From assembly GCA_900290245.1 (NCBI GenBank), contig OKRB01000090.1:830-64829 (forward strand): DNA of 64,000 nt. The letters are read 5' to 3'. The position numbers were made by a program, and so were the translations under genes. Source of the stretch: Candidatus Sulfuritelmatomonas gaucii (GTDB lineage: Bacteria > Acidobacteriota > Terriglobia > Terriglobales > Acidobacteriaceae). The notes under the pieces are model-generated. The model had not been told where the DNA came from, ran no database searches, and was given only the letters and a program-made list of their open reading frames with translations. Of this stretch, positions 36,408-62,842 are shown in pieces (within the stretch, counting starts at the first letter, position 1; every line of letters begins with the position of its first letter).

Positions 36408-37490
36408 CTACCGATCCGTACAGGAATAGCACGGGTCGATGGAGGCCTGGATCAGCGGCGTATCGGCGAGCCGCGCGCCTCGTACCATCCAGCGGACAGC
36501 CGGCATGTTGGCGAAGGTGGGCGTGCGCACGTGCACTCGGGCCGGATTGCGCGAGCCTTCTTTCCAGCTCACGCTGTACATCACCTCGCCCCGCGGCGCT
36601 TCCACGCGGCTTGTGGCTGTGCCGGTGACAAAGGCGAACTTGTCGGCGCCGGTTGAGATTTCGCCGGGCGGGATGTTGTTCAGCGCTTGGCGCAGGATTC
36701 GGCAGCTCTCCATGATCTCGAGGGCGCGGACGAAGAGACGGGCGCGCACGTCACCGGCCTGCTCGACCGGAACCTCGAACTGCATCTCGGCATAGGCTGC
36801 ATACGGCGCGTCGCGACGCAAATCCTGATTCACGCCCGAAGCGCGCGCGGTGGGCCCGACCACGGCGCAGGAGACCGCCTTTTCGTGCGTGAGCACGCCG
36901 ATGCCGGCGCAACGCGAGCGAGCCGTCGAGCTGGTGGTGAAAATCGGAATCACGGTGCGCGTCATCTCGCGCTCGAGGTCGTCGATCAGAGCCAGAAGCG
37001 CGGTCGGATCCTCGACATCGCGGTTCACGCCGCCTATGCAATTCATGGAGTAGTTGACGCGATTGCCGCTGATGGCCTGCAACACGTCCATCACCTTTTC
37101 GCGCAGCGCGAAACAAGTCATGAACATGGTTTTGAAGCCCATAAGCTTGGACGCGATGCCCGCCCAAAGCACATGCGAATGCAGCCGCTCCAGTTCCGCC
37201 ATGATGACGCGAATATATTTGGCGCGCGGCGGAGCTTCGACGTTGGCCAGCTTTTCCATGGCTTGGCAAAGCGTGAGCGTATGGATGAACGAGCAGATGC
37301 CGCAAACGCGCTCCATGAGCGCAATGACTTGAAAGTAATTGCGTGTTTCGGCCAGGTGCTCGATATTGCGGAAGTTGAACCCTATGTGCAGCTCAGCGTC
37401 GCGAACGGTTTCGCCCTCGCAGATCATGTCGAGCTTGTAGGGTTCTTCAAGACCCGGATGGTACGGCCCCATGGGAATCTTGTAGCTCAC
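36408..37490 (-). CDS. Group 4 [NiFe]-hydrogenase-like large subunit
   Basis: A 360-aa protein of the HycE/EchE/NuoD family. Both metal-binding motifs of true hydrogenases are present. C63 and C66 lie in ERVCGICSFIH; C354 and C357 lie in DPCYSCTDR, which forms the very C-terminus. NuoD of complex I lacks these cysteines, so this subunit should bind Ni-Fe. No C-terminal extension follows the second motif, so no maturation protease would be needed, as reported for some group 4 enzymes. The GTG start overlaps the NuoC-like stop by 4 bp (GTGA). Last gene of a six-gene operon. Hyp maturation genes are not in the window. Confidence 0.88.
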   Translation of the reverse strand: MSYKIPMGPYHPGLEEPYKLDMICEGETVRDAELHIGFNFRNIEHLAETRNYFQVIALMERVCGICSFIHTLTLCQAMEKLANVEAPPRAKYIRVIMAELERLHSHVLWAGIASKLMGFKTMFMTCFALREKVMDVLQAISGNRVNYSMNCIGGVNRDVEDPTALLALIDDLEREMTRTVIPIFTTSSTARSRCAGIGVLTHEKAVSCAVVGPTARASGVNQDLRRDAPYAAYAEMQFEVPVEQAGDVRARLFVRALEIMESCRILRQALNNIPPGEISTGADKFAFVTGTATSRVEAPRGEVMYSVSWKEGSRNPARVHVRTPTFANMPAVRWMVRGARLADTPLIQASIDPCYSCTDR

Positions 37491-37945
37491 TTTGCCACCT
37501 CCTTTTGCGCAGGCACGCCAGTCGGAGCTGCCATTTCGCGCAGGTTCACGCCCAGCTTGTCGCCGGCGCGCAGCAGCAGCGGCTCGTATTCGCGTCCTGT
37601 GAAATCGATGGCAAAGCCCTCGTGCACTTCGCGCTCAATCCAGTCGGCAGCCTCGCACAGATCGTAAATACTCTCGAACTTGGCGCTCTCCAGCGTGTCG
37701 CCCGCAATCACGAACGGAAAACCGATCAGCCGCCCCTCGAGGTCCCAGTGATACTCGAGCCGGAATCCCTCGGTACCGGGCAACTGGTAAGCAGTAATGG
37801 TGACGAAGCGCGCGCCGACGGCGTTCATCAGCACGGCGAGCTCTCGAACGCTTACGGTGCCTGGGTTCAGCCAGTGCGTGCCGCGGCTTTCCACCCACGG
37901 ATCACGAACGCCCAGTGTCTCGCGAATGCTGTCAAGATCAATCAT
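37487..37945 (-). CDS. NuoC-like (30 kDa) subunit of hydrogenase-like complex
   Basis: A 152-aa protein equivalent to the NuoC domain or the N-terminal part of HycE. It has SVRELAVLMNAVGARFVTITAY, YHWDLEGRLIGFPFVI and, near the end, the YDLCEAADWIEREVHEGFAI block. That block corresponds to the PS00542-type region of complex I 30 kDa subunits (S.aeWfERE.yDlfGI), here without the usual DLFGI ending. It links the large subunit with the electron-transfer arm. The ATG overlaps the stop of the ferredoxin gene (ATGA), and the stop overlaps the large-subunit start. Confidence 0.82.
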   Translation of the reverse strand: MIDLDSIRETLGVRDPWVESRGTHWLNPGTVSVRELAVLMNAVGARFVTITAYQLPGTEGFRLEYHWDLEGRLIGFPFVIAGDTLESAKFESIYDLCEAADWIEREVHEGFAIDFTGREYEPLLLRAGDKLGVNLREMAAPTGVPAQKEVAK

Positions 37946-38406
37946 TGTGCGCCTCCCTCTTGCGGCGTTGTCGCCGCGAGGACAGTCGGCCCGGCGGATG
38001 GAGCTACGGCGGGTGCAGCGGGCTTTGGCGCCGGCGGTCTGCGCGCCACGGTGTAGGACTTCTTCAGCGCGCCCTGCGCGAAATAAACGGGCGGGCACGC
38101 CTCCTGCTGGCTCAGCGCATGTTCCGTGCGCCCTTCCTTGAGTGCGTGATCGATGCAGCCCTCCACGCAGCGGCCGCAGAAGGTGCACTGGCCCGGGTTG
38201 TAGCTCCAGATGAACTCGCCTTTGCCCGCCTTGAACTCGATGGCGCGCGACGTGCAGCGAAAGCGGCAGATGGCACAGCCGGTGCAAAGCTCGGGATCGA
38301 ACTGCACGAGGCCGCGGAAGCGCGCCGTAACCTTGGGCCGCGCAGGAAAGAGCAGGGTTTGGTAGCCGCGCCGCAGATTCTTCCACATCATGGTGAGGAT
38401 GTTCAT
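37942..38406 (-). CDS. 2[4Fe-4S] ferredoxin-like subunit of hydrogenase-like complex
   Basis: A 154-aa protein with two CxxCxxCxxxC motifs: C41, C44, C47 and C51 (CTGCAICRFRC), and C74, C77, C80 and C84 (CTFCGRCVEGC). These would carry electrons between ferredoxin and the small subunit, as NuoI, HyfH or EchF do. The about 60 C-terminal residues are Ala/Pro-rich and not part of the cluster domain. The start is ATG 38406, overlapping the NuoH-like stop by 4 bp; 20 codons of upstream open frame are dropped. No formate dehydrogenase gene is present, so soluble ferredoxin is the likely electron carrier. Confidence 0.87.
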   Translation of the reverse strand: MNILTMMWKNLRRGYQTLLFPARPKVTARFRGLVQFDPELCTGCAICRFRCTSRAIEFKAGKGEFIWSYNPGQCTFCGRCVEGCIDHALKEGRTEHALSQQEACPPVYFAQGALKKSYTVARRPPAPKPAAPAVAPSAGPTVLAATTPQEGGAQ

Positions 38407-39317
38407 GACCAGAACCTCATGAGAATTGCCGATGAGATGGCAAGAACCGCGAAGATGAGCGTGCACTGCCAGTAGAAGCGCACGCTGGAATCAATGGCCA
38501 GGCGCGCCGTCGCTGCGGCGAGAACAGAAAGCAGCAGAACCACCGCGAACGAAATCGCGATGAAGATGCACGCTGCGATCCACACCGCGTGCACATGCGG
38601 AGCGACGAGCGTGGCCACGAGACCCACGCCGGCCACCCATTCCAGCCCATGTGCTAGTTCCCACATGGCCAGCTCCGCGCCCGCATACTCGGTCATCGGA
38701 CCTGCATAGATTTCCTGCTCGGCGTTGGGCAGCGAGAAGGGATTAATGTGCAGCTTCGCTGGCAGGCACACGAGAATGGCCGCTACGCCCAGCCAGAGCA
38801 GCGGCGTTGCGGGCAGAGCCGCAAGAGCTTCGAGCCGGAAGGTGTGCTGCGAAGCGGCGATGGAAACGATGGCCAGCAGAAAGACGATGTTGTAACTGAC
38901 GCTCAATGCTGCTTCGCGAGCCGAGCCGATCTCGGCAAAGATCGACCGCGACGAGAATCCGGCGGCGATGATGCACACCGAGGGCAGCTCGAGCAGAGCC
39001 AGCAGCAAGATGAGGTCGCCCTGGAATCCGCCGGACGACGGCAGCACAGGCAGCAGGCCGACCGCGCCCGCCGCTGCGGAGACCGCGATCAACGGCCACG
39101 CGCGCATCAGCATGCCGCCGATACCCGTGCGCGGCGGCGTCTCTTTGCCGAGCAGCTTCACGAAGTCAAAGAACGGCTGCATGAAGGGAGGGCCAACGCG
39201 CTCCTGCATCAGTGCCACTGATTTGCGCTCGACCCACAGGAAGAACCACGCAGCCGGCATCGCGAAGACCAAGCCGGGAAAGATGAGCAGACGGGCGAGG
39301 GCAGTGATTAAGGTCAT
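38403..39317 (-). CDS. NuoH/HycD-like membrane subunit
   Basis: A 304-aa polytopic protein with eight helices. It contains the NuoH signatures ERKSVALMQERVGPPFMQP (about residues 30-48) and the charged loop IFAEIGSAREAALSVSYN (about residues 125-142). NPFSLPNAEQEIYAGPMTEYAG (about 190-211) is equivalent to the NuoH quinone-site acidic loop. It anchors the hydrophilic subunits and couples to the antiporter. The start overlaps the small-subunit stop by 4 bp, and the end overlaps the ferredoxin-like gene by 4 bp. Confidence 0.9.
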   Translation of the reverse strand: MTLITALARLLIFPGLVFAMPAAWFFLWVERKSVALMQERVGPPFMQPFFDFVKLLGKETPPRTGIGGMLMRAWPLIAVSAAAGAVGLLPVLPSSGGFQGDLILLLALLELPSVCIIAAGFSSRSIFAEIGSAREAALSVSYNIVFLLAIVSIAASQHTFRLEALAALPATPLLWLGVAAILVCLPAKLHINPFSLPNAEQEIYAGPMTEYAGAELAMWELAHGLEWVAGVGLVATLVAPHVHAVWIAACIFIAISFAVVLLLSVLAAATARLAIDSSVRFYWQCTLIFAVLAISSAILMRFWS

Positions 39318-39805
39318 GGCTGCACCTCCCCTACGAAGGTCACGACGGGCTCAGCGTTTTGCGGATTGTTGCCGCGCTTAGCCAGGATCTCCGCCGCCTT
39401 GGCCACGCCCTGGATGATGGCATCAGGCCGCGGCGGGCAGCCGGGAACGTAGACGTCGACCGGCACATGCTTGTCGAGCGGGCCCTCAAGCGTGCGGCTG
39501 TCGATGAACACGTTGGTCGTAGCCGGGCAGGAGCCGATGGCGATCACCGCCTTGGGGCCCGGCACCTGGTCGTAAACGGTTTTCACTGCGCCTACGGCCT
39601 TGCGCGTGACCGGGCCGGTGACGCAAAGGATGTCGGCGTGCCGCGGGCTGCCTTGCAGCAGAACGCCCAACTGCTCGGCGTCATAGCGCGGCGAGAGCGC
39701 AGCAACAATTTCGATATCGCAGCCGTTGCAGCTGCCCGAGTTCATGTGAAAGAGCCAGGGGCTGCGGCGGCGCGCGGTGCACATCAATCGTCTCCAGAGC
39801 TTCAT
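39314..39805 (-). CDS. Hydrogenase-like small subunit (NuoB/HycG/EchC-type)
   Basis: A 163-aa protein carrying the proximal [4Fe-4S] cluster. The four ligands are visible: C26 and C29 in SGSCNGCDIE, C93 in GSCPAT, and C123 in PGCPPRPD. The CxxC spacing is that of group 4 hydrogenases; complex I NuoB has adjacent cysteines instead. The start is ATG 39805, overlapping the antiporter-fusion stop (ATGA). A 13-codon longer frame would read inside the previous gene and lacks support. Confidence 0.9.
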   Translation of the reverse strand: MKLWRRLMCTARRRSPWLFHMNSGSCNGCDIEIVAALSPRYDAEQLGVLLQGSPRHADILCVTGPVTRKAVGAVKTVYDQVPGPKAVIAIGSCPATTNVFIDSRTLEGPLDKHVPVDVYVPGCPPRPDAIIQGVAKAAEILAKRGNNPQNAEPVVTFVGEVQP

Positions 39806-42800
39806 GGCCGCACCCCCCGGAGCATTTGCAGCGCATTCGGCCAAACGCCAGCGGCGACGAGCAGCACCACGAGCACGACGATTGCAGCCTTCAAGGCGAA
39901 CGGCTCGCGCGTTGCCGATGCGGGTGGAGCGTCTTCACGCGGCGGACCCCACCAGTTGCGCGCAAGCGCCAGCGCATATGCAATCAGCGCGAAGATCGAC
40001 GAGAGGATGAAGAGAGCGAACGGCACATGGCCGATGGCAAGGGCCGACGTGTAAAGCCGCCAGCGGCCGGCGAAGCCCAGCATCGGCGGCACTCCAAGCA
40101 TGGCCAGCATGGCAAATAAAAAGCCAAACGCACTCACCGGGTAGCGCGTAGCGAGCGCGATGGGTTCGCTGTTGAATTCGCCCGCAGCTTCAGGAGCAGC
40201 AAGCGAGATGAAGAGAAGCGCTTTCGCCAGCGCATGTGTTGAAGCTGCGATGATTGCGCCTTGCACGCCGATCACGCTGGCCGACGATGCCCCAAGAAGC
40301 AGGAAGCCGACGTCCTCGACAGTGGAGAGAACCAGCAACCGTTTCAAGCTGCGTTGCGTGAGCATCAGCAACGCGGCCAGCAGCGAAGTGAGAATGGCAG
40401 CGCAAATCACCAGCGGTAGCGGTGTCAGCAGCCCGGGAATCTCCTGCGTGCCCAGGAGAAACTCGCCGAAAGCTGCCATATCGACCACGGCGATGATCAA
40501 GCCCAGCGCCAGTGCGGGCACTTCGTCGGCCAGTGCGAGAAGCCAGAAGCAAAGCGGAATCGCGGCGAGCTTGACGGCAATGCCGGTGAGCAGAAACGCA
40601 CGCGCTGAGTCGAGCTGACCGAAGTTGATGAACAGGCGGCTCGCGACCATCGATCCGACGGAGATGACCACGACCGTCATGTAGGTAAACTTGGCAGCTT
40701 GCGATCGTGCCGCGCGAACCACCGGCAGAAGCGACAACGCCGCTCCGAGTTCGAGGCATGTGAGGCGTGCCCAGGGCGCGGACAAGGTGAGTCCGAGAAC
40801 TGTTATTCCGCCAACAGCCAGCATCGACTGCCAGAGGAAGAGTCCCTTTCGCGGAGAGCTGACGAGTGAAACAACCGCGAGAGCCATTGCCGCCACAACG
40901 ATGCTCCACACCAGCATCGGCGGAACTTGCTCCAGCGGAGTCACCACCGGGAGGCCTGTGAATGCGGTTCCCGGCAGAACCCAGCGCACCAGTCCGAAGA
41001 CTGCGGAAACAAAGACGAGGAGGAGAATGACAGCATCGCGCTCCATCCAATCCGACGCGATGCCGAGCCAGCGCGAGACCGCCTGAATTCCGGTCCACAC
41101 ACCCAAATACGCGCGATCGACATTGGACCAGCGGAAGAACGAGCGCCAATGCTCCTGAAAAATCTCAGAGAAGTCGCCGGCCGTGAGACGTCCCTGGTCA
41201 GAAAGCGGTTCGCCACCTGTGAAGATGCCGCCACCACCCCAACCCGCAGAGGAGCTGCCTCCCGCCCCCGCCATCATCGCGCCGCCGACGACTGTAGCCG
41301 CTGCCGGCCGCGCCGCATAAGCAATCGCGTAGATCGCGCCGCCGAGCACAACTGAAACGAGCGCCAGCACCAGGCCGCCCGTCGAAGAGAAGCTGCCTGC
41401 GTCCGCCGAAAGGCCAAGCCACGTCACGTGCACGCCCGCGCCCATGCCGAGCGCGGCGAGAATCGGATTGAGGAAATAATTCACGGCCAACTGCGGCGCG
41501 ACGCCAAGCACGACGCTGCCTGCAGCCAGCAGTCCCATGCCCCATACCATCGACGGCGGTGACTCGTGCGCGTCCTTGGTGTTCTCGGTGGTGGGTCCGA
41601 GGAACACGGCGCTGGTCGCCTTCACGCCCATAAACACGGTGCCCAGGCTCGCGGCCCACGCCACCATCGCAGGCACAGCCCATCCGGCCTGCAGCGCCGC
41701 GGCATAGAGCATCCACTTGCTGGCAAAGCCGCTCATCAGCGGAATGCCCATCATGCTGCCCACGCCGATCAACCAGGAAAGAGTCGTCTGCGGCATCTTT
41801 CCGGCAAGGCCGCCGAGCTTATTCATGTCGCGCGTGCCCGACGCGTGCTGCACCGAGCCTGCCGTTAAGAACAGCCCGCCCTTGAAGAAGCCGTGATTCA
41901 GGCAATGCAGCAGCCCTGCCGTGATAGCGAGCGGCGTGCCGATGCCCAGGCCCATCATCATGTAGCCGATCTGGCTCACGGTGGAGTAGGCCAGCATGCG
42001 CTTCAAATCGGTCTGTACCATGGCATACATCACGCCCACCGCCATGGTCACCGTGCCCACCCACATCAGGCTCTCGCCCCACGCGGCGGGCCAAACGCCA
42101 AAGCTGTGCATGCGCGCCGCGAGATAAACGCCGGCCTTCACATAACACGCCGCGTGCAGCAGCGCGCTCACCGGTGTGGGCGCCGCCATCGCTTCAGGGA
42201 TCCACGTATGCAGCGGAACTTGTACGCTCTTGGCCACCAACGCGATCAGCATCAGCGCGAAGACTCCGCTCGTCATGCTGTGCGCCACCGCGGGATCGGT
42301 CCACAGCGCCGTACCGGCGCGATGATAGATGACCAGAATCGCCGCCAGCAGCCCATAGCCCGCGATGTGCGTCATCAGCAGCACTTTGCGCGCGCCGTTC
42401 ACGGCTTCGCGGTTGGTGTACCAGAAGCCGACCAGCGAGAACGAGCAGAGCCCCACCACTTCCCAGCAGAGATAAAAAATGAACAGGTTGGCGCTAAACA
42501 CCAGCGTGATGAAGCCGGCGATGAAAACCAGCATCGTCGAGTAGAACCGCGTGGCCGATTTGTCGTGCGCCATGTAGCCGATCGAATAGAGCAGCACCAG
42601 GCCGCCGATGCACGCTCCCATAAAGGCGAAGAGCACGCTGAGCGCGTCCACATGCAGGACGAAGGCAAGCGGCCCGTCCCACGGCAGCGGCTTCAGATCG
42701 ATACCCTGGCCGCTGCGTACCAACGGCGCGATGCCGATAACGGCGGCAACTGCGGGTAAGCAGGTGAGAAAAGCGAGGATTCCCTTTGTCCGGGCTGAGA

Positions 42801-42882
42801 AAAGGCGCGCGACCAGAATCTGCAGCGCCGCGCCCGACAATAACGCACATGGAGCAATCAGAATCAGAGTTGCTGCGTCCAT
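39802..42882 (-). CDS. Fused double antiporter-like subunit (NuoL-like + NuoN/MrpD-like)
   Basis: A 1026-aa membrane protein, about twice the usual antiporter subunit. The first half (residues 1 to about 500) is NuoL/HyfB-like, with the transmembrane glutamate E141 (LCWEVVGLCSF) and lysine K218 (LVAKSVQVPLHTWIPEA). A Gly/Ser-rich, flexible linker (about 530-560) and a short helix pair follow. The second half (about 650-1000) repeats the fold: LELGAALSLLPVV, VKLAAIPLCFWLLALADEVP and THALAKALLFISL keep a core Glu and two Lys. Two proton or sodium channels in one chain are implied. It is the first gene of the operon; the start ATG 42882 lies at the edge of a divergent 237-bp gap. Confidence 0.85.
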   Translation of the reverse strand: MDAATLILIAPCALLSGAALQILVARLFSARTKGILAFLTCLPAVAAVIGIAPLVRSGQGIDLKPLPWDGPLAFVLHVDALSVLFAFMGACIGGLVLLYSIGYMAHDKSATRFYSTMLVFIAGFITLVFSANLFIFYLCWEVVGLCSFSLVGFWYTNREAVNGARKVLLMTHIAGYGLLAAILVIYHRAGTALWTDPAVAHSMTSGVFALMLIALVAKSVQVPLHTWIPEAMAAPTPVSALLHAACYVKAGVYLAARMHSFGVWPAAWGESLMWVGTVTMAVGVMYAMVQTDLKRMLAYSTVSQIGYMMMGLGIGTPLAITAGLLHCLNHGFFKGGLFLTAGSVQHASGTRDMNKLGGLAGKMPQTTLSWLIGVGSMMGIPLMSGFASKWMLYAAALQAGWAVPAMVAWAASLGTVFMGVKATSAVFLGPTTENTKDAHESPPSMVWGMGLLAAGSVVLGVAPQLAVNYFLNPILAALGMGAGVHVTWLGLSADAGSFSSTGGLVLALVSVVLGGAIYAIAYAARPAAATVVGGAMMAGAGGSSSAGWGGGGIFTGGEPLSDQGRLTAGDFSEIFQEHWRSFFRWSNVDRAYLGVWTGIQAVSRWLGIASDWMERDAVILLLVFVSAVFGLVRWVLPGTAFTGLPVVTPLEQVPPMLVWSIVVAAMALAVVSLVSSPRKGLFLWQSMLAVGGITVLGLTLSAPWARLTCLELGAALSLLPVVRAARSQAAKFTYMTVVVISVGSMVASRLFINFGQLDSARAFLLTGIAVKLAAIPLCFWLLALADEVPALALGLIIAVVDMAAFGEFLLGTQEIPGLLTPLPLVICAAILTSLLAALLMLTQRSLKRLLVLSTVEDVGFLLLGASSASVIGVQGAIIAASTHALAKALLFISLAAPEAAGEFNSEPIALATRYPVSAFGFLFAMLAMLGVPPMLGFAGRWRLYTSALAIGHVPFALFILSSIFALIAYALALARNWWGPPREDAPPASATREPFALKAAIVVLVVLLVAAGVWPNALQMLRGVRP

Positions 42883-43119: not shown

Positions 43120-46100
43120 ATGATTTCTTCTTTGAAGCTCCGCTGCCCCATCGTTGCGTTTTCGCTTTTTTGTCTTGGAACGGCACTGGCCGCTCTACCC
43201 GCACTGGGCCAGCATGGGAAACCGGTTTCGCAACCAGGCTCCAATCTGCCCGCCGCGTCCCGCGCCATCATCGACCGGCTTGAGAGCCTCTCGCAGTTGC
43301 CCGTGGGCGTGTGGAAGATGCACGCCGGCGATCTGGCTCACGGCGAAGATGTGAACCTTGACGACAGCGGCTGGCAAACGGCGACCATGCGCGCCGACAC
43401 CTCGATGGATGCCGAGTGGTTTCGCCAGACATTTTCGATTCCGGAAACACTGCATGGCTACGACCTGACCGGCGCGCGCGTCTGGTTCCAGTTCCATGCC
43501 AATGCCAACGGACCGATCCCCGAGATTCTCTACTTCAACGGCCGCCGCGTGGCCTTGGGCGAGGACTTGGAGCCGACTGTGCTGTTTGACGACGCCAAGC
43601 CCGGCGACAAGGTTGTGGTCGCGGTCAAGTTGCTTGCCACGGTTGACGTCAAGCAGTTCCGCGGCGCCACGCTGCGCATCGATTTTCCCGAGAGCCGCCC
43701 CAATCCCGAAGACTTGGCGCAGGAGTTCCTGACGGCTGCGGTGCTTTTCCCGTCGATGTCTGCAGTGGCGGGGGTCGATCCGCATGACGTTCTCGTTGCC
43801 GCGATCTCGACCGTGAATCTAGCCGCATTGGACGCGAAGGATCAGAACAAGTTCGACGAAAGTCTCAAAGCTGCGCACTCCAAACTCGAAGCGCTGCTTC
43901 CGCTCGAGCAGCAGTTTACCTATCACGAGACCGGCAATGCGCACATCGACGCAGCGTGGCTGTGGCCGTGGACGGAAACCGTGGACGTGGTGAAGCGCAC
44001 CTTCTCCACCGCGCTGCAGTTGATGGACGAGTATCCCGACTACACCTACACCCAGTCCGCTGCGGCCTACTACGAATGGATGGCCGACAAATATCCCGAC
44101 ATCAACGCCCAGATCAAGAAGCGCATCCAGGAAGGCCGTTGGGAGGTAGTCGGCGGCATGTGGGTCGAGCCCGACCTGAACATGCCCGGCGGCGAATCGC
44201 TGGTGCGGCAGATCCTGGTGGCCAAGCGCTGGTTCAGGCAGCAATACGGAGTGGACGTGCGCATCGGCTGGAACCCCGATTCGTTTGGGTATTCGTGGCA
44301 ATTGCCGCAGATCTACAAGAAGAGCGGCATCGACTACTTTGTCACGCAGAAGATGACATGGAACGACACCAACGAACTCCCGTTCAAGCTGTTCTGGTGG
44401 GAGTCGCCCGACGGATCGAAGGTGCTCACCTATTTTCCCCACGACTACGTGAACACCACACTGAACCCGGTGCGCCTGGCAAGCGATCTTGCGGTTGCGC
44501 GTGAGCGCTCGCCGGGCATGACCGACATGATGGACCTTTACGGTGTAGGTGATCACGGTGGCGGACCCACGCGAGCCATGCTCGATGAGGGATTCCATTG
44601 GAGGGATCCGGGCGCGGCGGCCGTAGCTGCCGACGGCGGCGCGCCGGTGACGCCGAAATATGAGTTCGGCACCGCGCAAAGCTACTTCTCGACGGTTGAA
44701 AAAGAAATCGCCCCCGACAGCCCAACGTTGAATTACCAGTCGATTGCCAGGGGCTATGAGGCTCCGGCGGAAGTGTCGGGAAAAGTTTCGATTCCGACGT
44801 GGGATAGCGAGCTTTATCTCGAATATCACCGCGGCGTCTACACTACGCAGGCCATGCACAAACACAACATGCGCACGTCAGAGGAGGAACTGCTGAACGC
44901 GGAGAAGTGGTCGTCGCTGGCATGGGTCCTGGCCGGACGGGCATACCCTTCGGACGGATTGACTGAAGATTGGAAAAAGGTCCTCTTCAACCAGTTCCAC
45001 GATCTGGCCGCCGGCTCGGGCATCGCCGACATTTATAAGGACTCACGTCAGGACTACCAATGGGTGCGCATGTCGACGGATGCGATTTCGTCGGCAGCGC
45101 TGAAGACCATGGCAGAGCACGTCAATACCGCGGGCGACGGGATTGCGGTTTTGGTCTACAACCCGCTGGGCTGGGAGCGCTCGGGTGATGTGCATTTCAA
45201 AGTGCAACTGCCCGATGCAAATATTGCAGGCGTCATGGTGGTTGATCCTGCCTCATACAACAAGGGTGTACTTCCGGAGCAGGAAACTGTCGACGCGAAG
45301 ACAAATGTGGCCGAGTTGACAGTGAATCTTCCGGATGTTCCAGCGCTGGGTTACAAGGTCTTTCATATTGTGCCGGTGACAGGCGGTTTGGACCGCCGCG
45401 TTACGGCATTGGACCAGGCAAACACGATCGCGCTCGGATACAAAGGGCTGCGGCTGGTGGTGGACAAGCAGAGTGGTTGCATTACGAGCCTGAAGTTGGA
45501 CGGCTACGAGACATTCGCCCCCGGCGCATGCGGCAATCAGCTTCAGTTTTTCAAGGACCTTCCAAAACAGTACGACGCCTGGAACATCGATCCCGGCACG
45601 CTCGATGTGTCGCCGATGACCGTCAGCAAAGCCGATTCGGTGGAGCTGTTCGGTGGGGACGCCATCCGCGTCACCTATCACTGGCAGAGCTCCAAGTTCG
45701 TACAAACGATTCGACTCAAAGGTGACATCGTCGACATCGACAACGACATCGGCTGGCACGAGAAACACATCCTGCTGAAAGCAGCGTTCCCGCTCAGCGT
45801 CACCAGCAACTTTGCCACCTACGAAATTCCCTATGGCTCCATCGAGCGGCCGACGACGCGCAACAATAGCTGGGAAAAAGCGCAGTTTGAGGTTCCGGCG
45901 CTCCGCTGGGCCGATCTCTCGGGCGCAGGACCAGACGGCAAGGTGCACGGCCTGAGCCTGCTCAATAAAGACAAGTACGGCTACGACGCCGCGGGCAACG
46001 TGCTGCGGCTCACGCTGCTGCGCTCGCCCACATGGCCCGATCCCGATGCCGACCAGGGGCATCAGCATTTCCACTACGCAATCTATCCGCACGCAGGCAC

Positions 46101-46482
46101 GTGGAAAGACGCGCTCACGGTGCGCCACGGCTGGGAGTACGACTATCCGCTCCAGGCCGTCGTAACCACTGCCCACCCCGGCTCGCTGCCACCTGAGAAT
46201 TCATTCGCATCGGTCTCGCCCGACAACGTTGTGCTCTCGGCGGTGAAAAAAGCCGAAGATGCAAACGGTCTCATCTTCCGCGCATACGAGTGGGCAGGGA
46301 AGGAGACGACGGCAGAGTTTCACGTGTCGCCGGGTGCAACCAGCGCGACGGTTACAAATCTGATGGAACAGCCCGAAGGCGACCCGCTCCCGATCGCGGA
46401 CAACGTAGTCAAAGTCCCAATTCATCCCTATGAAATTCTGACGATCCGCGTGGATTATCCGAAGGCAGGAAGTAGCCAATAG
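43120..46482 (+). CDS. Secreted GH38 alpha-mannosidase
   Basis: A 1120-aa glycoside hydrolase family 38 enzyme, predicted to trim alpha-mannosides. A signal peptide (about residues 1-27) precedes an N-terminal beta-rich region. The catalytic domain starts near residue 270 with HETGNAHIDAAWLWPW (zinc-binding His/Asp). The nucleophile aspartate is in GWNPDSFGYSWQLP (about residue 388). The LYGVGDHGGGPTR segment adds a zinc His (about residue 475). The C-terminal half holds the usual beta domains. GGAAGG lies 10 bases before ATG 43120, and a TAAAAT box lies at 43093. It is divergent from the hydrogenase-like operon. No other sugar genes are nearby. Confidence 0.92.
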   Translation: MISSLKLRCPIVAFSLFCLGTALAALPALGQHGKPVSQPGSNLPAASRAIIDRLESLSQLPVGVWKMHAGDLAHGEDVNLDDSGWQTATMRADTSMDAEWFRQTFSIPETLHGYDLTGARVWFQFHANANGPIPEILYFNGRRVALGEDLEPTVLFDDAKPGDKVVVAVKLLATVDVKQFRGATLRIDFPESRPNPEDLAQEFLTAAVLFPSMSAVAGVDPHDVLVAAISTVNLAALDAKDQNKFDESLKAAHSKLEALLPLEQQFTYHETGNAHIDAAWLWPWTETVDVVKRTFSTALQLMDEYPDYTYTQSAAAYYEWMADKYPDINAQIKKRIQEGRWEVVGGMWVEPDLNMPGGESLVRQILVAKRWFRQQYGVDVRIGWNPDSFGYSWQLPQIYKKSGIDYFVTQKMTWNDTNELPFKLFWWESPDGSKVLTYFPHDYVNTTLNPVRLASDLAVARERSPGMTDMMDLYGVGDHGGGPTRAMLDEGFHWRDPGAAAVAADGGAPVTPKYEFGTAQSYFSTVEKEIAPDSPTLNYQSIARGYEAPAEVSGKVSIPTWDSELYLEYHRGVYTTQAMHKHNMRTSEEELLNAEKWSSLAWVLAGRAYPSDGLTEDWKKVLFNQFHDLAAGSGIADIYKDSRQDYQWVRMSTDAISSAALKTMAEHVNTAGDGIAVLVYNPLGWERSGDVHFKVQLPDANIAGVMVVDPASYNKGVLPEQETVDAKTNVAELTVNLPDVPALGYKVFHIVPVTGGLDRRVTALDQANTIALGYKGLRLVVDKQSGCITSLKLDGYETFAPGACGNQLQFFKDLPKQYDAWNIDPGTLDVSPMTVSKADSVELFGGDAIRVTYHWQSSKFVQTIRLKGDIVDIDNDIGWHEKHILLKAAFPLSVTSNFATYEIPYGSIERPTTRNNSWEKAQFEVPALRWADLSGAGPDGKVHGLSLLNKDKYGYDAAGNVLRLTLLRSPTWPDPDADQGHQHFHYAIYPHAGTWKDALTVRHGWEYDYPLQAVVTTAHPGSLPPENSFASVSPDNVVLSAVKKAEDANGLIFRAYEWAGKETTAEFHVSPGATSATVTNLMEQPEGDPLPIADNVVKVPIHPYEILTIRVDYPKAGSSQ

Positions 46483-49872: not shown

Positions 49873-49997
49873 TATGGCCAAAGCGCAGAATAACGCGGGC
49901 CTGAAGGAAGGCGAGTGCAGCACCCGGAGGCATGACCCGTGATGGGACAAATGACGCCGATGCACATCGCATGGTTGATGTGCGGAGGCGGCTCAAA

Positions 49998-51320
49998 ATG
50001 ACCTGGAGCGATGACTACCGGCGCAAGTGCATGAGCGCCGGGCAGGCGCTGCAAGCAGTCGCTTCGGGCAATCGCGTATGGATCCAATCAGGCTGCGGCA
50101 CTCCTTCTGTTCTTGTTGATGCGCTGGTAGCGCGCGCCAGCGAACTGCGCAACGTTGAAATTGTCCATATGAAGACGCTGGGCAGCGCGGACTACACGCG
50201 GCCCGAGTATGAAGGTCACTTCCGCCACCGCGGATTGTTCCTCGGCGACAACGTTCGTGAAGCAGTGGCCAACGGCCGCGCTGATTACACTCCCATCTTC
50301 TTGAGCGAGATTGAAGGCCTCTTCGAGAGCGGCGCTCTCCCGCTCGATGTCGTCCTCATGCAGGTGTCGCCACCGGACGCGCACGGGTTTGTGAGCCTGG
50401 GCACGACAGTGGATTGCACTCTGACCCTTGTGCGCTACGCAAGGATCGTGATTGCCGAAGTAAACCGGCGGATGCCGCGCACACACGGCGAAACCAATGT
50501 GCACATAAGCCACATCTCCGCCATCGTGGAGAGCGATCGGTCTCTGCTTGAGTTGGAGGCGGAGCCGTTCAACAGGACGCACATGCGCGTGGGAGCCAAT
50601 GTGGCCTCGCTGATTCCCGATGGAGCCACTCTGCAGACTGGTATCGGCGGCATTGCGGATGCGGTTCTGCGCTGCCTCGGCGATAAGCACGACCTGGGAA
50701 TCCATACCGAGCTCGTCCCGGACGGGGTGGTCGATCTTATGGAAGCGGGCATCATCAACGGCGAGCGCAAGACTCTGCATCGCGGCAAAGCTGTGGGCGC
50801 ATTTGTGCTGGGCTCGCAGCGGCTGTTTGATTTCGTTCATGAGAATCCCAGCTTCGAGTTCCGGCCCATCAGCTATACCAACGATCCATTTGTGGTGGCG
50901 CAGAATGACCGCATGGTGGCGATCAATGGAGCGCTGCAGGTGGATCTCACGGGGCAGGTGTGTGCCGACTCGATCGGCACGCGGCCGTACAGCGGGATTG
51001 GAGGCCAGATTGACTTTATTCGCGGCGCGGCACGCTCGCGCGGCGGCGTGCCGATTATTGCGTTGCCATCAACGGCGAAGCACGGCGCCGTATCGCGCAT
51101 TGTGCCGGTTTTGGATCCCGGCGCTGGGGTCGTCACCTCTCGCGCCGATGTTCATTATGTGGTGACCGAGCATGGCGTCGCTTATCTGCACGGAAAGACG
51201 CTGCGCGAACGGGCTGAAGCGTTGATCGCGATCGCGGAGCCGAAGTTCCAGGCCGAGCTCGAAGACTTTGCGGTGCGCGCGCATTATTTGGAACGTAAAC
51301 CGGCCGCAGCGCTGGTTTGA
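49998..51320 (+). CDS. Acetyl-CoA hydrolase/transferase family CoA-transferase
   Basis: A 440-aa enzyme of the acetyl-CoA hydrolase / 4-hydroxybutyrate CoA-transferase family, which moves CoA between acyl groups. Visible are the N-terminal fold ([13 protein letters not shown]) and the C-terminal domain with [20 protein letters not shown]. The likely catalytic glutamate is in [10 protein letters not shown] (about residue 238). [21 protein letters not shown] closes the protein. ATG 49998 follows a GGAGG site; an upstream ATG at 49932 lacks one. First gene of the Vor-type operon, where it could release free branched acids from acyl-CoA while conserving the CoA bond. Confidence 0.87.
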
Positions 51321-51349
51321 GCTGCGGAACTCCGGAGGGGATAACAAAG

Positions 51350-51652
51350 ATGACCGACGCAAAGAAGCCGGATCGAGGTCAGTTGCGGATCGATGTGGAC
51401 GAGTGCAAGGGCTGCGGCCTTTGCATTGAAGCCTGCCCGCCGAAAGTGATCAGCATGAGCGAGCGGCTCAATCACTATGGCTATCGCACGGCGATCTATG
51501 GGGGCGCAGGCTGTACGGGCTGCGGCATCTGCTTCATGATCTGCCCGGAGCCGGGTGCAATTACGGTGCTGCGGCTGGCAAGCAAGTGCGTTGGCCTGGC
51601 GGCCGAGGCGAACGCTGCGGGTCAGGAGGCGGCGTCATGCGCAAGCAACTGA
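51350..51652 (+). CDS. 2[4Fe-4S] ferredoxin-type subunit of 2-oxoacid oxidoreductase (VorD/KorD-like)
   Basis: A 100-aa iron-sulfur subunit. Two CxxCxxCxxxC motifs are seen: C19, C22, C25 and C29 ([15 protein letters not shown]), and C55, C58, C61 and C65 ([11 protein letters not shown]). It would accept electrons from the thiamine-diphosphate subunit and pass them to soluble ferredoxin. ATG 51350 has GGAGGGG 8 bases upstream. It lies 29 bp after the CoA-transferase and overlaps the alpha subunit gene by 16 bp. Confidence 0.9.
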
Positions 51653-52716
51653 TGAAGGGCAACGAAGCCATCGTCAAGAGCGCCATCCTTTCCGGCTGCC
51701 GCGCCTTCTACGGATATCCGATTACGCCGGCAAGTGAGATCGCCGAGGCTGCGGCGGTATTCATGCCCAAGGCCGGCGGCGTGTATGTGCAGGCGGAGAG
51801 CGAAGTGGCGGCGATCAACATGCTCTACGGCGGGGCGTCGGCCGGCATTCGCGCCATGACCGCGTCGAGCGGCCCCGGCATCAGCCTCATGCAGGAAGGT
51901 ATCAGCTACATGGCCGGGGCGGAGTTGCCCTGTGTGATCGCCGACATTACGCGCGGCGGCCCGGGCCTGGGCAACATTGCCGCCGAGCAGGGTGACTATC
52001 ACCAGGTGGTCAAGGGCGGCGGCCACGGGAATTACCGCACGATCGTGCTGGCTCCGCACTCGGTGCAAGAGATGGCGGACCTGACTGCGCTGGCGTTTGA
52101 GCTGGCCGACCGCTACCGCAACCCGGTGGTGATCCTGGCCGATGGGTTTGTGGGCCAGATGATGGAGCCCGTCGCATTCCCGCAAAAAGCGATCGGATCG
52201 TCGATGCCGCCGTGGGCCGTTGCCGGCACCGCGGAGACGCGACCCAACATGATCAACTCTCTGCACATGGACGTGGACGATCTGGAGCGGCACGTTCGCG
52301 CGCTTGAGGCCAAATACAAAATCGCCGAGCAGCGCGAAGCCCGAGCCGAAGAGTGGTGCACGGCCGATGCTGAGATCGTACTCGTCGGCTACGGCATTGT
52401 GGGCCGCATTTTGAAGGCCGTCACCGCCGAGGCTCGCGCAAACGGCCTGAAAGTGGGAGTGCTGCGGCCCATCACGCTGTATCCCTTCCCAGTTGTGCAA
52501 TTCCAGCGCTTGGCATTCAATGCGCGCGCCTTTCTTGTGGTTGAAATGAGCAACGGCCAGCTCGTTGAAGACGTGAAGCTGGCGCTGAACGGCTCTCGCC
52601 CGGTCGAATTCCTGAGCCGCGTGGGCGGCAACGTGCCGTCGCACGAAGAGGTGCTGAATTTCGTTCACGGGTTGGCACGGCGAACCGTAGATGAGGAGCG
52701 GATGGCAAATGTCTAG
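51637..52716 (+). CDS. 2-oxoacid:ferredoxin oxidoreductase alpha subunit (VorB/KorA-like)
   Basis: A 359-aa alpha subunit of the thiamine-diphosphate-dependent 2-oxoacid:ferredoxin oxidoreductase family. The N-terminus [16 protein letters not shown] with [14 protein letters not shown] is like that of VorB, the branched-chain (3-methyl-2-oxobutanoate) type. [21 protein letters not shown] and the C-terminal domain [10 protein letters not shown] follow. AGGAGG precedes ATG 51637. The operon partners, a branched-chain aminotransferase and glutamate dehydrogenase, favour branched-chain 2-oxoacids over 2-oxoglutarate, but the substrate is not provable from sequence. Confidence 0.88.
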
Positions 52717-54328
52717 CGAGCATGTCACGAGCGCCGAATCGTATCAGGGCACGACTCCAGTCGTGCCGAACGAGGCCGAAAAACCGGCGGGCTTTAGCCC
52801 CAGTGAAAGCGCGGACCCAACTCTCGACTACACAGTCGCGCACGGCAGGGCCAAGGCCTTTTACGAGCACTACGAGCGCAAGGATGAACTGCAGCACCAG
52901 ACGCACTATTGTCCCGGCTGCGGCCACGGCACCGTGCACAAGATGCTGGCCAGGGCCATCGACGATCTGGGCGTGCAGGATAGGACGATCCTCGTCGGGC
53001 CGGTGGGCTGCTCGGTCTTTACCTATTACTACTTCGACGTGGGCAACGTGCAGGCCGCGCACGGACGCGCGCCGGCCGTGGCCACGGCGATGAAGCGCAG
53101 CCGCCCCAATAGCATCGTGATTAGCTACCAGGGCGACGGCGATCTCTCGGCCATCGGCTCGGCGGAGATTCTGCATGCCGCCAACCGCGGCGAAAACATC
53201 ACGGTGATCTTTGTCAACAACGCCATTTACAGTATGACCGGCGGGCAATGCGCGCCCACCACGCTGCTGGGCCAGAAGAGCACGACCACGCCGGACGGTC
53301 GCAGCGCCGCTACGGAAGGCTATCCGCTGCACGTCAGCGAGTTGCTCAGCACGCTCGAAGCGCCCGTCTATATTGAGCGCGTCGCCCTTGGCGACAACAA
53401 GCAGGTGGCGCAGGCCTCGCGAGCCATTAAGCGCGCGCTTGAAAATCAGGTGCGCGGACTCGGATTCAGCCTGATCGAAGTGCTTTCTCCGTGCCCGACC
53501 ATCTGGAAGATGACGCCGGTGGACGCGCAGCGCTGGGTCCACGATGTGATGGAGAAGACCTTTCCGCTTGGAGTGTTTTGCGACCGCACCAAAGAGCGGA
53601 CGCCGCAGCCACACGCTCTGGAAAGTTCTGCAGCACCCGGCACTCTACCAAAAGCCGCACCAACGCTCGCAGACATTCCTGGAATTCTCGGCGTCGCAGA
53701 AGAAAACTTGCCTGAGGGCAATGCGCACGCCGTAGTATCCGAGCACGACATCGACCTTCAGGTGCGTATCGCTGGCTTTGGCGGGCAGGGAGTTTTGCTT
53801 CTCGGCGAAGTGCTGGCCGAAGCTGGCCTCGATGCCGGGCTCGAGGTTTCGTGGCTGCCTTCGTATGGGCCCGAGATGCGCTCGGGCACATCGAACTGCT
53901 GCGTGCGGATCGAAAGCGAAACCATCGACTCGCCGCTGGTGAATTCGCCGAACGTTCTCGTGGCCATGAACGAGCCGTCGCTGCGCAAGTTCGATAAAAG
54001 CGTGCGTCCCGGCGGATGGGTGATCTACAACGGCGACGAATTTCCCGCCAACTGCGCGCGCGACGATGTGCATGTGCTCGCCTTGCCCTTCACGCATCTG
54101 GCCGACGAGTTGGGCGACACGCGGGCCTCGAACATGGTGATGCTTGGAGCGTTGCTTGAGATCACAGGCGTACTGCCGCAGGCCAGCATTGACGCGGCAT
54201 TGCGCCGATTAGTGAAAAACCCGCGCTGGGTGGAACTGGACGAGCGCGCTATGGCGCGGGGACGAGAACTGTACAAAGAGTCGCTCCTGGGAGGTGTGAA
54301 ATGCGTGCCGATGGCGATCCAAACCTGA
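52709..54328 (+). CDS. Fused beta + gamma subunit of 2-oxoacid:ferredoxin oxidoreductase
   Basis: A 539-aa protein joining two subunits that are usually separate. Residues about 40-300 are the TPP-binding beta subunit: C68 and C71 in [13 protein letters not shown], and a [11 protein letters not shown]-type metal/TPP motif followed by [13 protein letters not shown] Pro/Ala-rich linker spans about 310-345. Residues about 353-539 are the gamma subunit ([32 protein letters not shown]). Start ATG 52709 overlaps the alpha stop by 8 bp and has GAGGAG upstream. The first 40 residues are a poorly conserved extension. The end overlaps the aminotransferase gene by 28 bp. Confidence 0.88.
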
Positions 54329-55281
54329 TTGTCTATTTCGGCGGGCAGTATGTGCCCATGCGCGAGGCGAAAGTCGGAATCCTGACGCATGCCTTGCACT
54401 ATGGAACTGGCGTCTTCGAAGGGATTCGCGCCTATTGGAGCGAAGACGAGCAGGAGCTGTTCGTCCTGCGCGCTGTGGAGCACTTTGACCGCTGGAAGAA
54501 GAACAGCGGAATCCTGCACATGAATGTGCCGCCGGCCGAGGAGTTGTGCACCATCACCGCGGAGCTGGCGCGGCGCAACAATCTTCGCACCGATCTCTAC
54601 ATCCGGCCGCTGGCCTACAAGTGCGCCGAGCGCATCGGCGTGGCCATCGACGATCAGGATGCCTTCGCCATCGTGGCCATTCCCTTTGGCGAGTATCTGC
54701 ACAGCGAGAACGGCCTCCACGCCGGTGTCAGCTCGTGGCGGCGCATCGACGATAATGCCATTCCGCCGCGCGGCAAAATCTGCGGCGCTTACGCCAACAG
54801 CGCGCTGGCCAGTGACGATGCGCGACGTTGCGGATTCGATGAGGCGATCCTGCTCAATGAGAGCGGCCATGTGACCGAAGGCGCAACCTGCAATCTTTTC
54901 ATGTTGCGCAAGGGGCGCCTGATCACACCTCAGGTTACGGAAAATGTACTCGAAGGCATCACGCGCGATTGCGTGGCGGTATTGGCGCAGCACGAACTTG
55001 CGCTTGAGATTGTCGAGCGGCCCATCGACCGCAGCGAGCTGTACATCTGCGACGAGTTGTTCCTTACAGGAACGGCCGTGGGCCTCGCTCCCGTGGTGCG
55101 CGTTGATCATCGCGCCGTGGGAGACGGCCAGATCGGCGCGGTTACGCGGCGCCTGCGGCAGTTGTACTTCGACGCCGCGCGTGGCCATCTGCCGCAATAC
55201 CGCAAATGGCTGCTTCCGGTTTATGGCAGCGGGCGTGTCAGGCAGGATGCGGCGCGAATGAAAGAACCAAGTTTCGCCTGA
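54301..55281 (+). CDS. ilvE: Branched-chain amino acid aminotransferase
   Basis: A 326-aa PLP fold-type IV enzyme that transfers amino groups of Val, Leu and Ile to 2-oxoglutarate. Key parts are HALHYGTGVFEGIRAY (about residues 30-45), the PLP lysine in GKICGAYANSAL (about residue 159), and GFDEAILLNESGHVTEGATCNLF with the conserved Glu (about residues 175-200). The start ATG at 54301 overlaps the previous gene by 28 bp and has GGGAGG upstream, so it is translated with the Vor subunits. In this setting it would feed branched 2-oxoacids to the oxidoreductase. Confidence 0.93.
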   Translation: MRADGDPNLIVYFGGQYVPMREAKVGILTHALHYGTGVFEGIRAYWSEDEQELFVLRAVEHFDRWKKNSGILHMNVPPAEELCTITAELARRNNLRTDLYIRPLAYKCAERIGVAIDDQDAFAIVAIPFGEYLHSENGLHAGVSSWRRIDDNAIPPRGKICGAYANSALASDDARRCGFDEAILLNESGHVTEGATCNLFMLRKGRLITPQVTENVLEGITRDCVAVLAQHELALEIVERPIDRSELYICDELFLTGTAVGLAPVVRVDHRAVGDGQIGAVTRRLRQLYFDAARGHLPQYRKWLLPVYGSGRVRQDAARMKEPSFA

Positions 55282-55364
55282 GCGAGTGCGGAGGCGCGTG
55301 TCCCAGGCTTCAATTTTTATACCTGGGATATTGCCCCGTGCGGCCAGGCAAGGAGGAAACACGA

Positions 55365-56624
55365 ATGCCAACAGCAGTAATTCAAAACAACGCGTATGAC
55401 GTGGCCATGGAGAATTTCGATACAGCAGCAAACGCCATCGGCCTCGACAAGAATACGCGCGAGATGATCAAGTATCCCGAACGCATGCTCCTGGTGAGCG
55501 TACCGGTGCGCATGGATGATGGATGCATTCACCACTTTGAGGGCTTCCGCGTGCAGCACAGTTCGGTGCGCGGACCCGCCAAGGGCGGCATCCGCTACCA
55601 TCCGCAGGTAACACTCGACGAAGTGAAGGCGCTGGCCACGTGGATGACGTGGAAGTGCGCCGTGGTGAACATTCCGTTCGGCGGTGCGAAAGGCGGCATC
55701 ACATGCAACCCGAAAATGATGTCGCCCGGCGAACTTGAGCGTATGACGCGCCGTTACACCAGCGCGATTCTTCCGCTCATCGGGCCGGAACAGGATATTC
55801 CCGCGCCCGATGTCTACACCAACTCCCAGACCATGGCCTGGATCATGGATACCTACAGCATGACCAAGGGCTATATGATCCCCGGCGTGGTTACGGGCAA
55901 GCCCATCAGCCTGGGCGGCTCGCTGGGACGTAACGAGGCCACTGGTCGCGGCGTCTTCTTCACCATCGAGTGCGCCTGTGAGCATCTCCATATGTCTCTA
56001 AAGGGCGCAACTGTTGCCGTGCAGGGATTCGGCAATGCAGGCTCGATTGCTGCGCAGTTGCTCTACGAAGCAGGCGCGAAGATCCTTGCGGTCAGCGACT
56101 CGACAGGCTGCGTCTACAACCGCGACGGCCTCAACATTCCGGAACTGATCGCCATGAAGTCGCTCTGTGGCCATGTCGAGGGGTTCCCGGAGAGCGAACC
56201 GATCCTGCCGCACGAACTGCTCGCCATGCACTGCGACATCCTGATCCCAGCCGCACTTGAAAATGCACTTCATGCCGAGAACGCGGGCACGGTGCGTGCG
56301 AAGATCATCGCCGAAGCAGCCAACGGGCCCATCACGCCTGCAGCGGACAGAATTCTCGAAAGCAAGGGCGTTTTTGTCATCCCGGATATTCTGTGCAACG
56401 CGGGCGGTGTCACGGTTTCGTACTTCGAGTGGGTGCAGGATGAACAGCACCTGTTCTGGGAAGCCGCCGACATCTACAAGCGCCTCGATCGTGTCATGAA
56501 GACGGCCTTCCGCGACGTGCTCAAGATCCACCTTGAGAAGAACGTACCAATGCGGATCGCAGCCAACATGCTCGGCATTGGCCGCGTAGCCGAAGCCGTT
56601 CAGATTCGCGGAATCTATCCGTAA
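55365..56624 (+). CDS. Glutamate dehydrogenase (Glu/Leu/Phe/Val dehydrogenase family)
   Basis: A 419-aa dehydrogenase releasing ammonia from glutamate to 2-oxoglutarate with NAD(P)H. It has the substrate-binding lysine region GPAKGGIRYHP (about residues 70-80), the catalytic lysine in IPFGGAKGGI (about 105-114), PAPDVYTN, and the Rossmann fold VAVQGFGNAGS (about 218-228). NAGGVTVSYFEW follows near residue 345. ATG 55365 follows AAGGAGG; 53 codons of upstream open frame are rejected. Last gene of the operon, 83 bp after ilvE. It would regenerate 2-oxoglutarate for the aminotransferase. Confidence 0.93.
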   Translation: MPTAVIQNNAYDVAMENFDTAANAIGLDKNTREMIKYPERMLLVSVPVRMDDGCIHHFEGFRVQHSSVRGPAKGGIRYHPQVTLDEVKALATWMTWKCAVVNIPFGGAKGGITCNPKMMSPGELERMTRRYTSAILPLIGPEQDIPAPDVYTNSQTMAWIMDTYSMTKGYMIPGVVTGKPISLGGSLGRNEATGRGVFFTIECACEHLHMSLKGATVAVQGFGNAGSIAAQLLYEAGAKILAVSDSTGCVYNRDGLNIPELIAMKSLCGHVEGFPESEPILPHELLAMHCDILIPAALENALHAENAGTVRAKIIAEAANGPITPAADRILESKGVFVIPDILCNAGGVTVSYFEWVQDEQHLFWEAADIYKRLDRVMKTAFRDVLKIHLEKNVPMRIAANMLGIGRVAEAVQIRGIYP

Positions 56625-62020: not shown

Positions 62021-62141
62021 GAAATGCAGGGACCAGGGAATAGGGAACGGTTTTTTGTGCGTTCGATGAAGGATGAACTCTTCGAACAGCATTTTACTGA
62101 TCGCTGACCACTGATCACCGACAACTGGAGCGATGCGACCG

Positions 62142-62840: not shown

Positions 62841-62842
62841 TT

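Follow-up and report, generated by a model that had tools for sequence, protein, structure and literature searches.

A probable energy-converting group 4 [NiFe]-hydrogenase of Candidatus Sulfuritelmatomonas gaucii and the upstream donor modules of its relatives

Candidatus Sulfuritelmatomonas gaucii, a member of the Acidobacteriaceae (Acidobacteriota; Terriglobia; Terriglobales), carries a six-gene operon that, judged by sequence, encodes a true group 4 [NiFe]-hydrogenase. The operon lies at positions 36408-42882 of a 64-kb stretch of DNA (64,000 nucleotides; assembly GCA_900290245.1, contig OKRB01000090.1, positions 830 to 64,829), the whole of which is here termed the window. Its product is probably a six-subunit energy-converting hydrogenase, acting as a ferredoxin:proton oxidoreductase that would evolve H2 and pump ions. 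Many of its nearest relatives carry a donor enzyme with the operon and the window lineage does not, a pattern that an earlier examination of the DNA letters alone (the sequence-only reading) could not see. Where they need to be told apart, genomes, contigs and loci are given G, C and L numbers.

Operon structure

The operon consists of six intact minus-strand open reading frames (ORFs), and all five gene junctions are overlaps of exactly 4 bp (ATGA or GTGA). This arrangement had been described by the sequence-only reading, and its coordinates and all five junctions were confirmed. The genes are as follows.

36408..37490, minus strand: [NiFe] large subunit H (NuoD/CooH-like); 360 amino acids (aa), GTG start, C63/C66 and C354/C357, without C-terminal extension
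37487..37945, minus strand: NuoC-like subunit U (CooU-like); 152 aa, Complex1_30kDa PF00329 at 9.8e-08, above cut-off, scanned on a longer reading frame
37942..38406, minus strand: 2[4Fe-4S] NuoI-like subunit X (CooX-like); 154 aa, all 8 ligand Cys, probable point of electron entry
38403..39317, minus strand: NuoH-like membrane subunit K (CooK-like); 304 aa, PF00146 at 2.3e-50
39314..39805, minus strand: NuoB-like small subunit S (CooL-like); 163 aa, PF01058 at 4e-29, with C26, C29, C93 and C123 for the proximal [4Fe-4S] cluster
39802..42882, minus strand: membrane subunit M, an antiporter fusion; 1026 aa, with a NuoL/Mrp-type unit at ~1-490 and an antiporter-like unit at ~650-1021

Above-cut-off Pfam domains of complex I type occur in all six proteins (Fer4 for X), and the large subunit matches both PF00346 and PF00374 above cut-off. 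Its closest solved structures are MbhL of the Pyrococcus membrane-bound hydrogenase (MBH; 6cfw_L, 4e-81) and HycE of Escherichia coli formate hydrogenlyase (FHL; 7z0s_E, 3e-68), both of which outrank complex I chains among the best 60 of 116 matches. The protein terminates straight after DPCYSCTDR and, as had been noticed earlier, retains both CxxC motifs.

Phylogeny of the large subunit

The large-subunit tree comprised 77 sequences, of which 75 came from 176 extracted stretches (duplicates included) and two were PDB chains; rows were drawn from two sampled genome sets and from one scan, which contributed the best 80 among at least 567 confirmed matches. The window row lies inside an 11-row Acidobacteriaceae group (support 100/100), and the next node outward is a 13-row group that adds two more Acidobacteriota (100/99). 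A 39-row clade (100/100) encloses the window group and adds Anaerolineae and other Chloroflexota, Actinomycetota, Nitrospirota, Thermodesulfobacteriota and Azospirillum-type Pseudomonadota. Outside it stand the NuoD-like rows, the FHL-like rows with HycE (100/99), the Ech-like rows (100/99) and the CooH-like rows (100/100). The NuoD-like rows have neither CxxC motif and the window protein groups apart from them; a complex I copy or a cysteine-less relative was thus rejected. The earlier claim that the enzyme is hydrogenase-like, and neither a complex I NuoD nor an Ehr-type protein, agrees with the motifs and with this placement in a tree that held no Ehr reference.

The 39-row clade is solid. 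A 50-row node (96/95) unites it with the CooH-like rows, a Clostridia group and L190; its grouping with the Clostridia has a support of 68/0. Approximately unbiased (AU) tests joining the window clade with CooH (p-AU 0.285), Ech (0.336) or L190 (0.294) rejected none of these placements, and came with a long-branch warning. Gene order, rather than comparison with named reference sequences, was the basis of the labels: M-K-S-(U)-H-(X) for Ech and M-K-L-X-(U)-H-F-S for CooH. The first of these orders, applied to loci of the G796 phylum, is presumably that of Ech. The second follows the canonical coo order in the available text of PMC4257681. There are four CooH-like rows: neighbours were inspected for L178 and L194, and likeness was the sole basis for the labels of L162 and L174. 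CooS is absent from L194 within the stretch examined. A search for CooS in Alphaproteobacteria found it in 0 of 385 genomes, hence the G410 and G796-phylum loci served as CooH/Ech comparators in place of Rhodospirillum rubrum CooH.

Several comparator loci have features of their own. In the Clostridia group (L098-L135; 47-51% identity), a HypA-like match occurs in 37 of 38 loci, mostly right behind the large subunit, and several small genes lie ahead of the antiporter gene. Three group 4 large subunits of the G796 phylum (L170, L195 and L176) carry TGA codons in frame and their first CxxC motif cannot be read, which suggests that they are selenocysteine-containing group 4 hydrogenases.

Conservation of ligands and of the membrane subunit

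Ligands were counted across 45 clade loci, excluding duplicates and the window itself; many loci are partial, hence the number aligned differs per position. In the large subunit, C63 and C66 are Cys in 45/45 loci, and C354 and C357 in all 43 aligned. The four small-subunit ligands are kept in 40/40 (C123 in 41/41), as are the eight Cys of X in 43/43. Small-subunit C9 and C61 and C104 of X are variable, as expected of non-ligand cysteines. The large-subunit gene is under purifying selection: across 55 pairs of 11 Acidobacteriaceae genes, the ratio of nonsynonymous to synonymous substitution rates (dN/dS; Nei-Gojobori) has a median of 0.10 and a maximum of 0.21, at a median dS of ~1.0. The operon is retained in many Acidobacteriaceae metagenome-assembled genomes (MAGs). 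In two MAGs the large-subunit frame is broken (L063, 11005-11007; L069, 10129-10134), through either assembly error or decay.

Structural models indicate that M folds as two NuoL/NuoM/NuoN-type antiporter-like units. Across residues 1-~490, the model of the whole protein (pLDDT 77) resembles NuoL, Mrp and HycC chains (top VIA Z 47). Residues 594-1026, modelled alone (pLDDT 90.5, pTM 0.91), match NuoM, NuoN and ND4 chains (Z 33-36) over ~367 residues (model 56-428), entering those chains ~60-80 residues in. Charged residues are conserved in both unit 1 (E141, 32/32; K218, 33/33; H330, 34/34; K389, 32/33) and unit 2 (K771 and K887, each 31/31; H883, 28/31), with an Arg in 27/32 near the position of the last Lys of unit 2. 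From work on complex I, these are taken to be residues of the proton path. Most Acidobacteriota examined encode M in a single gene, whereas several Chloroflexi and Azospirillum lipoferum split it into two (about 617 + 396 aa).

Gene order and upstream donor modules

The order M-S-K-X-(U)-H is found in every clade locus with a whole or near-whole operon (45 loci); U was detected in 34, a divergent U escaped detection in five, and six start inside the operon. Upstream donors were surveyed in the 34 loci with at least 2 kb ahead of M, namely the window, the same-genus genome G345 (through L064) and 32 others. Three AOR, two CooS and two molybdenum enzymes were identified by model scans, and the rest by tblastn seeded with these. 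Directly upstream of M, 16 of the 34 loci encode a tungsten-type aldehyde ferredoxin oxidoreductase (AOR) with a 4Fe-4S protein, three encode the CO dehydrogenase (CODH) CooS, and two encode a molybdopterin-dependent aldehyde oxidoreductase with a 4Fe-4S protein (in L078, NF045668 at 1624 bits, cut-off 1100). The AOR of these loci is presumed to be a tungsten enzyme. None of the three donors was found in the other 13 loci by these seeded searches, which an unrecognised donor could escape. All 17 non-Acidobacteriota loci and four Acidobacteriota loci carry a donor; the 13 donor-less loci are all Acidobacteriota, comprising ten Acidobacteriaceae (window included) and L070, L072 and L082. On the clade tree, at least five donor changes are required across the 30 rows of known state, a count that excludes L063, L069, L087 and L090, whose large-subunit rows are broken, cut or near-copies.

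NuoE and NuoF had been guessed from ORF sizes to be the upstream pair in relatives; the real pair is a 4Fe-4S protein with AOR, CooS or the molybdenum aldehyde oxidoreductase. A complete AOR-linked operon is found on plasmid AZO_p2 of Azospirillum lipoferum 4B (L202, 886-10080), deposited as hypA, 4Fe-4S protein, AOR, ubiquitin-like modifier, NuoL, second antiporter, NuoB, complex I subunit 1, 4Fe-4S protein, NuoC and large subunit, and is a candidate aldehyde hydrogenlyase. The plasmid is typed as conjugative. Genome G410, an Acidobacteriales MAG, has besides its window-type operon (L072) a cluster in canonical cooMKLX(U)HFS order (L178), with cooS cut by the contig end.

A tentative picture of the whole clade, about which doubt slightly outweighs confidence, is of a plug-in respiratory hydrogenase that most often partners with an aldehyde oxidoreductase. 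Such an aldehyde hydrogenlyase would convert aldehydes to acids, evolve H2 and pump ions; the donor would have been swapped for CODH or a molybdenum aldehyde oxidoreductase in some lineages, and dropped in the Acidobacteriaceae to leave a free-standing ferredoxin-driven pump. The clade includes strains of Azospirillum, Levilinea and Longilinea, which makes the aldehyde:H2 prediction accessible to work on cultures.

Maturation genes and electron sources

The S. gaucii assembly (5.3 Mb) is 94% complete. A search for hyp maturation genes, covering HypA and HypF, found HypF on contig C36 and, on contig C140, HypA next to a CobW/HypB-family gene. PF00374 matches in this genome comprise a group 1-like enzyme, a group 3-like enzyme beside NuoF- and NuoG-like genes, and the window large subunit. 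The Holophagaceae genome G805 (locus L082) offers stronger maturation evidence: its clade large subunit is the sole PF00374 match above cut-off, the other, sub-threshold match being a cysteine-less NuoD-like protein, and hypA begins 14 bp downstream of the large subunit, with hypF 0.8 kb beyond. Of 19 genomes searched, 14 yielded HypA and the other five are all MAGs; all 19 have PF00374 matches, and most also hold other hydrogenases.

Potential ferredoxin-reducing enzymes in the S. gaucii genome are a 1227-aa pyruvate:ferredoxin oxidoreductase (PFOR; contig C36), a VorB-type enzyme in the window (51586-54328) and a third POR_N match (contig C131). On contig C36 (L037), the PFOR, the group 3-like hydrogenase with its NuoF-/NuoG-like genes and HypF all lie within ~16 kb. 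In two relatives, L065 and L087, a PFOR stands less than 10 kb from the operon, and L065 has HypF and a group 3 hydrogenase there as well.

The earlier statement that no formate dehydrogenase (FDH) or CODH gene is linked to the operon held up. CooS is absent from the whole S. gaucii genome, and a CO-linked enzyme was rejected for this organism. No FDH match lies above cut-off; three FDH-model matches occur on other contigs, the best to an FDH-alpha model (271 of 666 bits) scoring slightly better as a dimethyl sulfoxide (DMSO)-reductase-family subunit, also below cut-off. AOR and its 4Fe-4S gene have no match in the window and AOR is absent from the genome, so an AOR-linked enzyme was likewise rejected. 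A search confined to the window gave no match to the molybdenum aldehyde oxidoreductase. CooS occurs elsewhere in the genome in one of six Acidobacteriaceae relatives tested (G407), and G410 has two contig-end pieces.

Proposed function and alternatives

Homology with MBH, FHL and complex I suggests that X takes up the electrons and the small-subunit cluster relays them to the NiFe site, and that the membrane arm is driven by conformational or electrostatic coupling. In the window enzyme, reduced ferredoxin would donate electrons to the 2[4Fe-4S] subunit X, from which they would travel through the small subunit, by way of its single [4Fe-4S] cluster, to the NiFe site, where protons would be reduced. 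The energy released would drive ion movement, probably of H+, through the NuoH-like subunit and the two fused antiporter-like units. As no operon-linked donor was found in the Acidobacteriaceae branch, the enzyme probably draws on the soluble ferredoxin pool, which pyruvate and branched-chain 2-oxoacid:ferredoxin oxidoreductases would fill. Ferredoxin as donor, direction, coupling ion and activity are all features that we infer.

Several observations weigh against this proposal. The hyp genes of the S. gaucii genome (HypA and HypF seen) are shared with two other hydrogenases, and are therefore no sole proof that the window enzyme is matured. Among the relatives examined, none has the VorB cassette close to its operon, and just two have PFOR there. 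The tree is without named Ech2, R. rubrum CooH or Methanosarcina barkeri Ech, and every deeper join tried survives the AU tests. Moreover, the NiFe site could equally work towards H2 uptake.

This last point leads to an unlikely alternative, in which the same enzyme runs in reverse and the proton motive force powers the oxidation of H2 to yield reduced ferredoxin for biosynthesis or anaerobic metabolism. Ech enzymes are listed as reversible (HydDB table, in the available text of PMC5037454), purified Ech2 is described as reducing ferredoxin with H2 (PMC9356269, in part), and the S. gaucii genome has other hydrogenases and 2-oxoacid:ferredoxin oxidoreductases that could consume reduced ferredoxin. 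However, the low-potential donors carried by many relatives (AOR, CODH and the molybdenum aldehyde oxidoreductase) fit H2 evolution. It is improbable that a donor encoded elsewhere, such as a formate, aldehyde or CO dehydrogenase, docks with the enzyme in the manner of formate hydrogenlyase or of the CODH-hydrogenase complex. The donors in relatives' operons, CooS on other contigs in G407 and G410, and the incompleteness of the genome, in a gap of which such a gene may sit, are compatible with this, as is the assignment of group 4 enzymes of peatland Acidobacteria to formate (4a) or CO (4c) in the portion of PMC6018796 available. The S. gaucii genome, however, is without CooS or an AOR domain and matches the FDH-alpha model only below cut-off.

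A confurcating hydrogenase taking electrons from NADH (or NADH and ferredoxin) via a NuoEF-like partner is very improbable; NADH on its own is not a strong enough donor and would need assistance. L061 does encode NuoE and a 1053-aa NuoF-GltD-type flavoprotein, divergent beside the operon (317-4014), and contig C36 bears the NuoF-containing group 3 cluster; yet the whole pair occurs in no other clade locus, the NuoE/NuoF-like matches of L065 and L072 belong to group 3 hydrogenase clusters, and the window has none. Least probable of all is a decaying, non-functional remnant of a CO- or aldehyde-linked complex, for which the donor genes not found, the broken frames in L063 and L069 and the CooH-like enzyme of Sulfurospirillum multivorans, with no CODH and negligible transcripts (PMC5357620, as far as its available text goes), speak, but which sits poorly with six intact genes, invariant ligands, dN/dS of ~0.10 and retention in many Acidobacteriaceae MAGs. 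A ferredoxin-driven, H2-evolving ion pump is the preferred reading, in line with the sequence-only reading, which had proposed proton reduction by ferredoxin or the reverse reaction.

Genomic neighbourhood

Further features of the window are as follows.

49932..51320, plus strand: acetyl-CoA hydrolase/transferase, possibly part of the 2-oxoacid cassette
51586..54328, plus strand: 2-oxoacid:ferredoxin oxidoreductase, with VorB-type alpha (51586-52716) and fused beta-gamma (52691-54328) subunits, a possible source of reduced ferredoxin
54301..56624, plus strand: branched-chain transaminase and glutamate dehydrogenase, adjoining the VorB genes

Together, 49932-56624 probably constitute a branched-chain amino acid oxidation cassette; it was rejected as a syntenic partner of the hydrogenase, since no clade locus has it close to the operon. 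Divergent from the operon is a GH38-type alpha-mannosidase (Pfam; 43120-46482), and ORFs resembling it by eye lie upstream of the operon in L056 and perhaps L063 and L069. The sequence-only reading had placed a full complex I operon 20 kb away. Such an operon is present, but it only starts within the window (~62.1 kb; 62133-64000) and continues past its end (L198). On the contig it comprises B, C, D, H, L, M, M and N-like genes, i.e. an extra NuoM-like gene, with no obvious nuoEFG between them; a NuoG-like 777-aa protein is encoded on contig C29. In G345, a complex I operon of the same type is convergent with the hydrogenase, ~140 bp apart.

Prior work and significance

Group 4 hydrogenases of peatland Acidobacteria are already known: those of MAGs have been assigned to groups 4a and 4c (PMC6018796) and to 4b and 4d (PMC9599518), and may or may not belong to the window clade. 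Donor exchange has a precedent in Parageobacillus, which couples CODH to a 4a enzyme (PMC6036681, in part), and AOR has been proposed to feed MBH through ferredoxin in Wolframiiraptor (PMC9246946, in part). In the available text of the open-licence literature, no description was found of a donor-swapping M-S-K-X-U-H family whose operons carry AOR, CODH or the molybdenum aldehyde oxidoreductase. If the proposed function is correct, Acidobacteriaceae of peat, bog and permafrost would shed electrons as H2 while conserving energy, thereby feeding hydrogenotrophic partners. The clade would likewise show how one hydrogenase core can be rewired to aldehydes, CO or ferredoxin through the swap of an upstream cassette.

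Comparison with known systems

The window operon shares with CooMKLXUH (HydDB 4c) its six subunits, the X-U-H order, the lack of a C-terminal extension (as in the CooH-like rows) and one very large membrane subunit (CooM is 1255 aa in Rubrivivax according to the available part of PMC4257681). It differs in its order, M-S-K-X-U-H rather than M-K-L-X-U-H, and has neither CooF nor CooS; the CooH-like large subunits of L178 and L194, from loci of canonical order, are ~39-41% identical to that of the window and form their own clade with two further rows. With Ech (4e) it shares a six-subunit core and, again, no C-terminal extension, whereas the Ech-like loci of the G796 phylum have the order M-K-S-(U)-H-(X), a single antiporter match and a separate clade (100/99). 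Pyrococcus MBH (4d) and E. coli FHL-1 (4a) provide the closest solved large subunits, and the HycC fold fits unit 1 of M; however, the window operon is without the Mrp gene set, HycB, a fused NuoC-NuoD or a C-terminal extension, and the FHL-like rows form a separate clade. A formate hydrogenlyase (4a) was accordingly rejected, there being no linked FDH, no C-terminal extension and a position outside the HycE clade.

An AOR-linked relative is the operon on AZO_p2 of A. lipoferum 4B, which has the M-S-K-X-U-H core and a large subunit 54% identical to that of the window. It differs in that M is split and preceded by a divergent hypA, a 4Fe-4S protein, AOR and a ubiquitin-like small modifier (as annotated).

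Purified Ech2 of Thermoanaerobacter kivui is reported to produce H2 from ferredoxin and to pump H+, not Na+ (PMC9356269, in its available part, which also underlies the following comparison). Its A1 (69.4 kDa) and A2 (42.6 kDa) subunits resemble in size the split antiporters of the Chloroflexi and Azospirillum relatives (616-617 + 396-397 aa), and its A-C-B-F block, by locus tags, matches M-S-K-X. Compared by description only, Ech2 differs in having eight subunits, including HycB2, and its D-E genes at the opposite block end; HycB/CooF-like 4Fe-4S seeds gave no match in the window, whose operon does not show the Ech2 order D-E-HycB-A1-A2-C-B-F. By analogy, T. kivui Ech2 would be the nearest biochemical anchor for the window enzyme.

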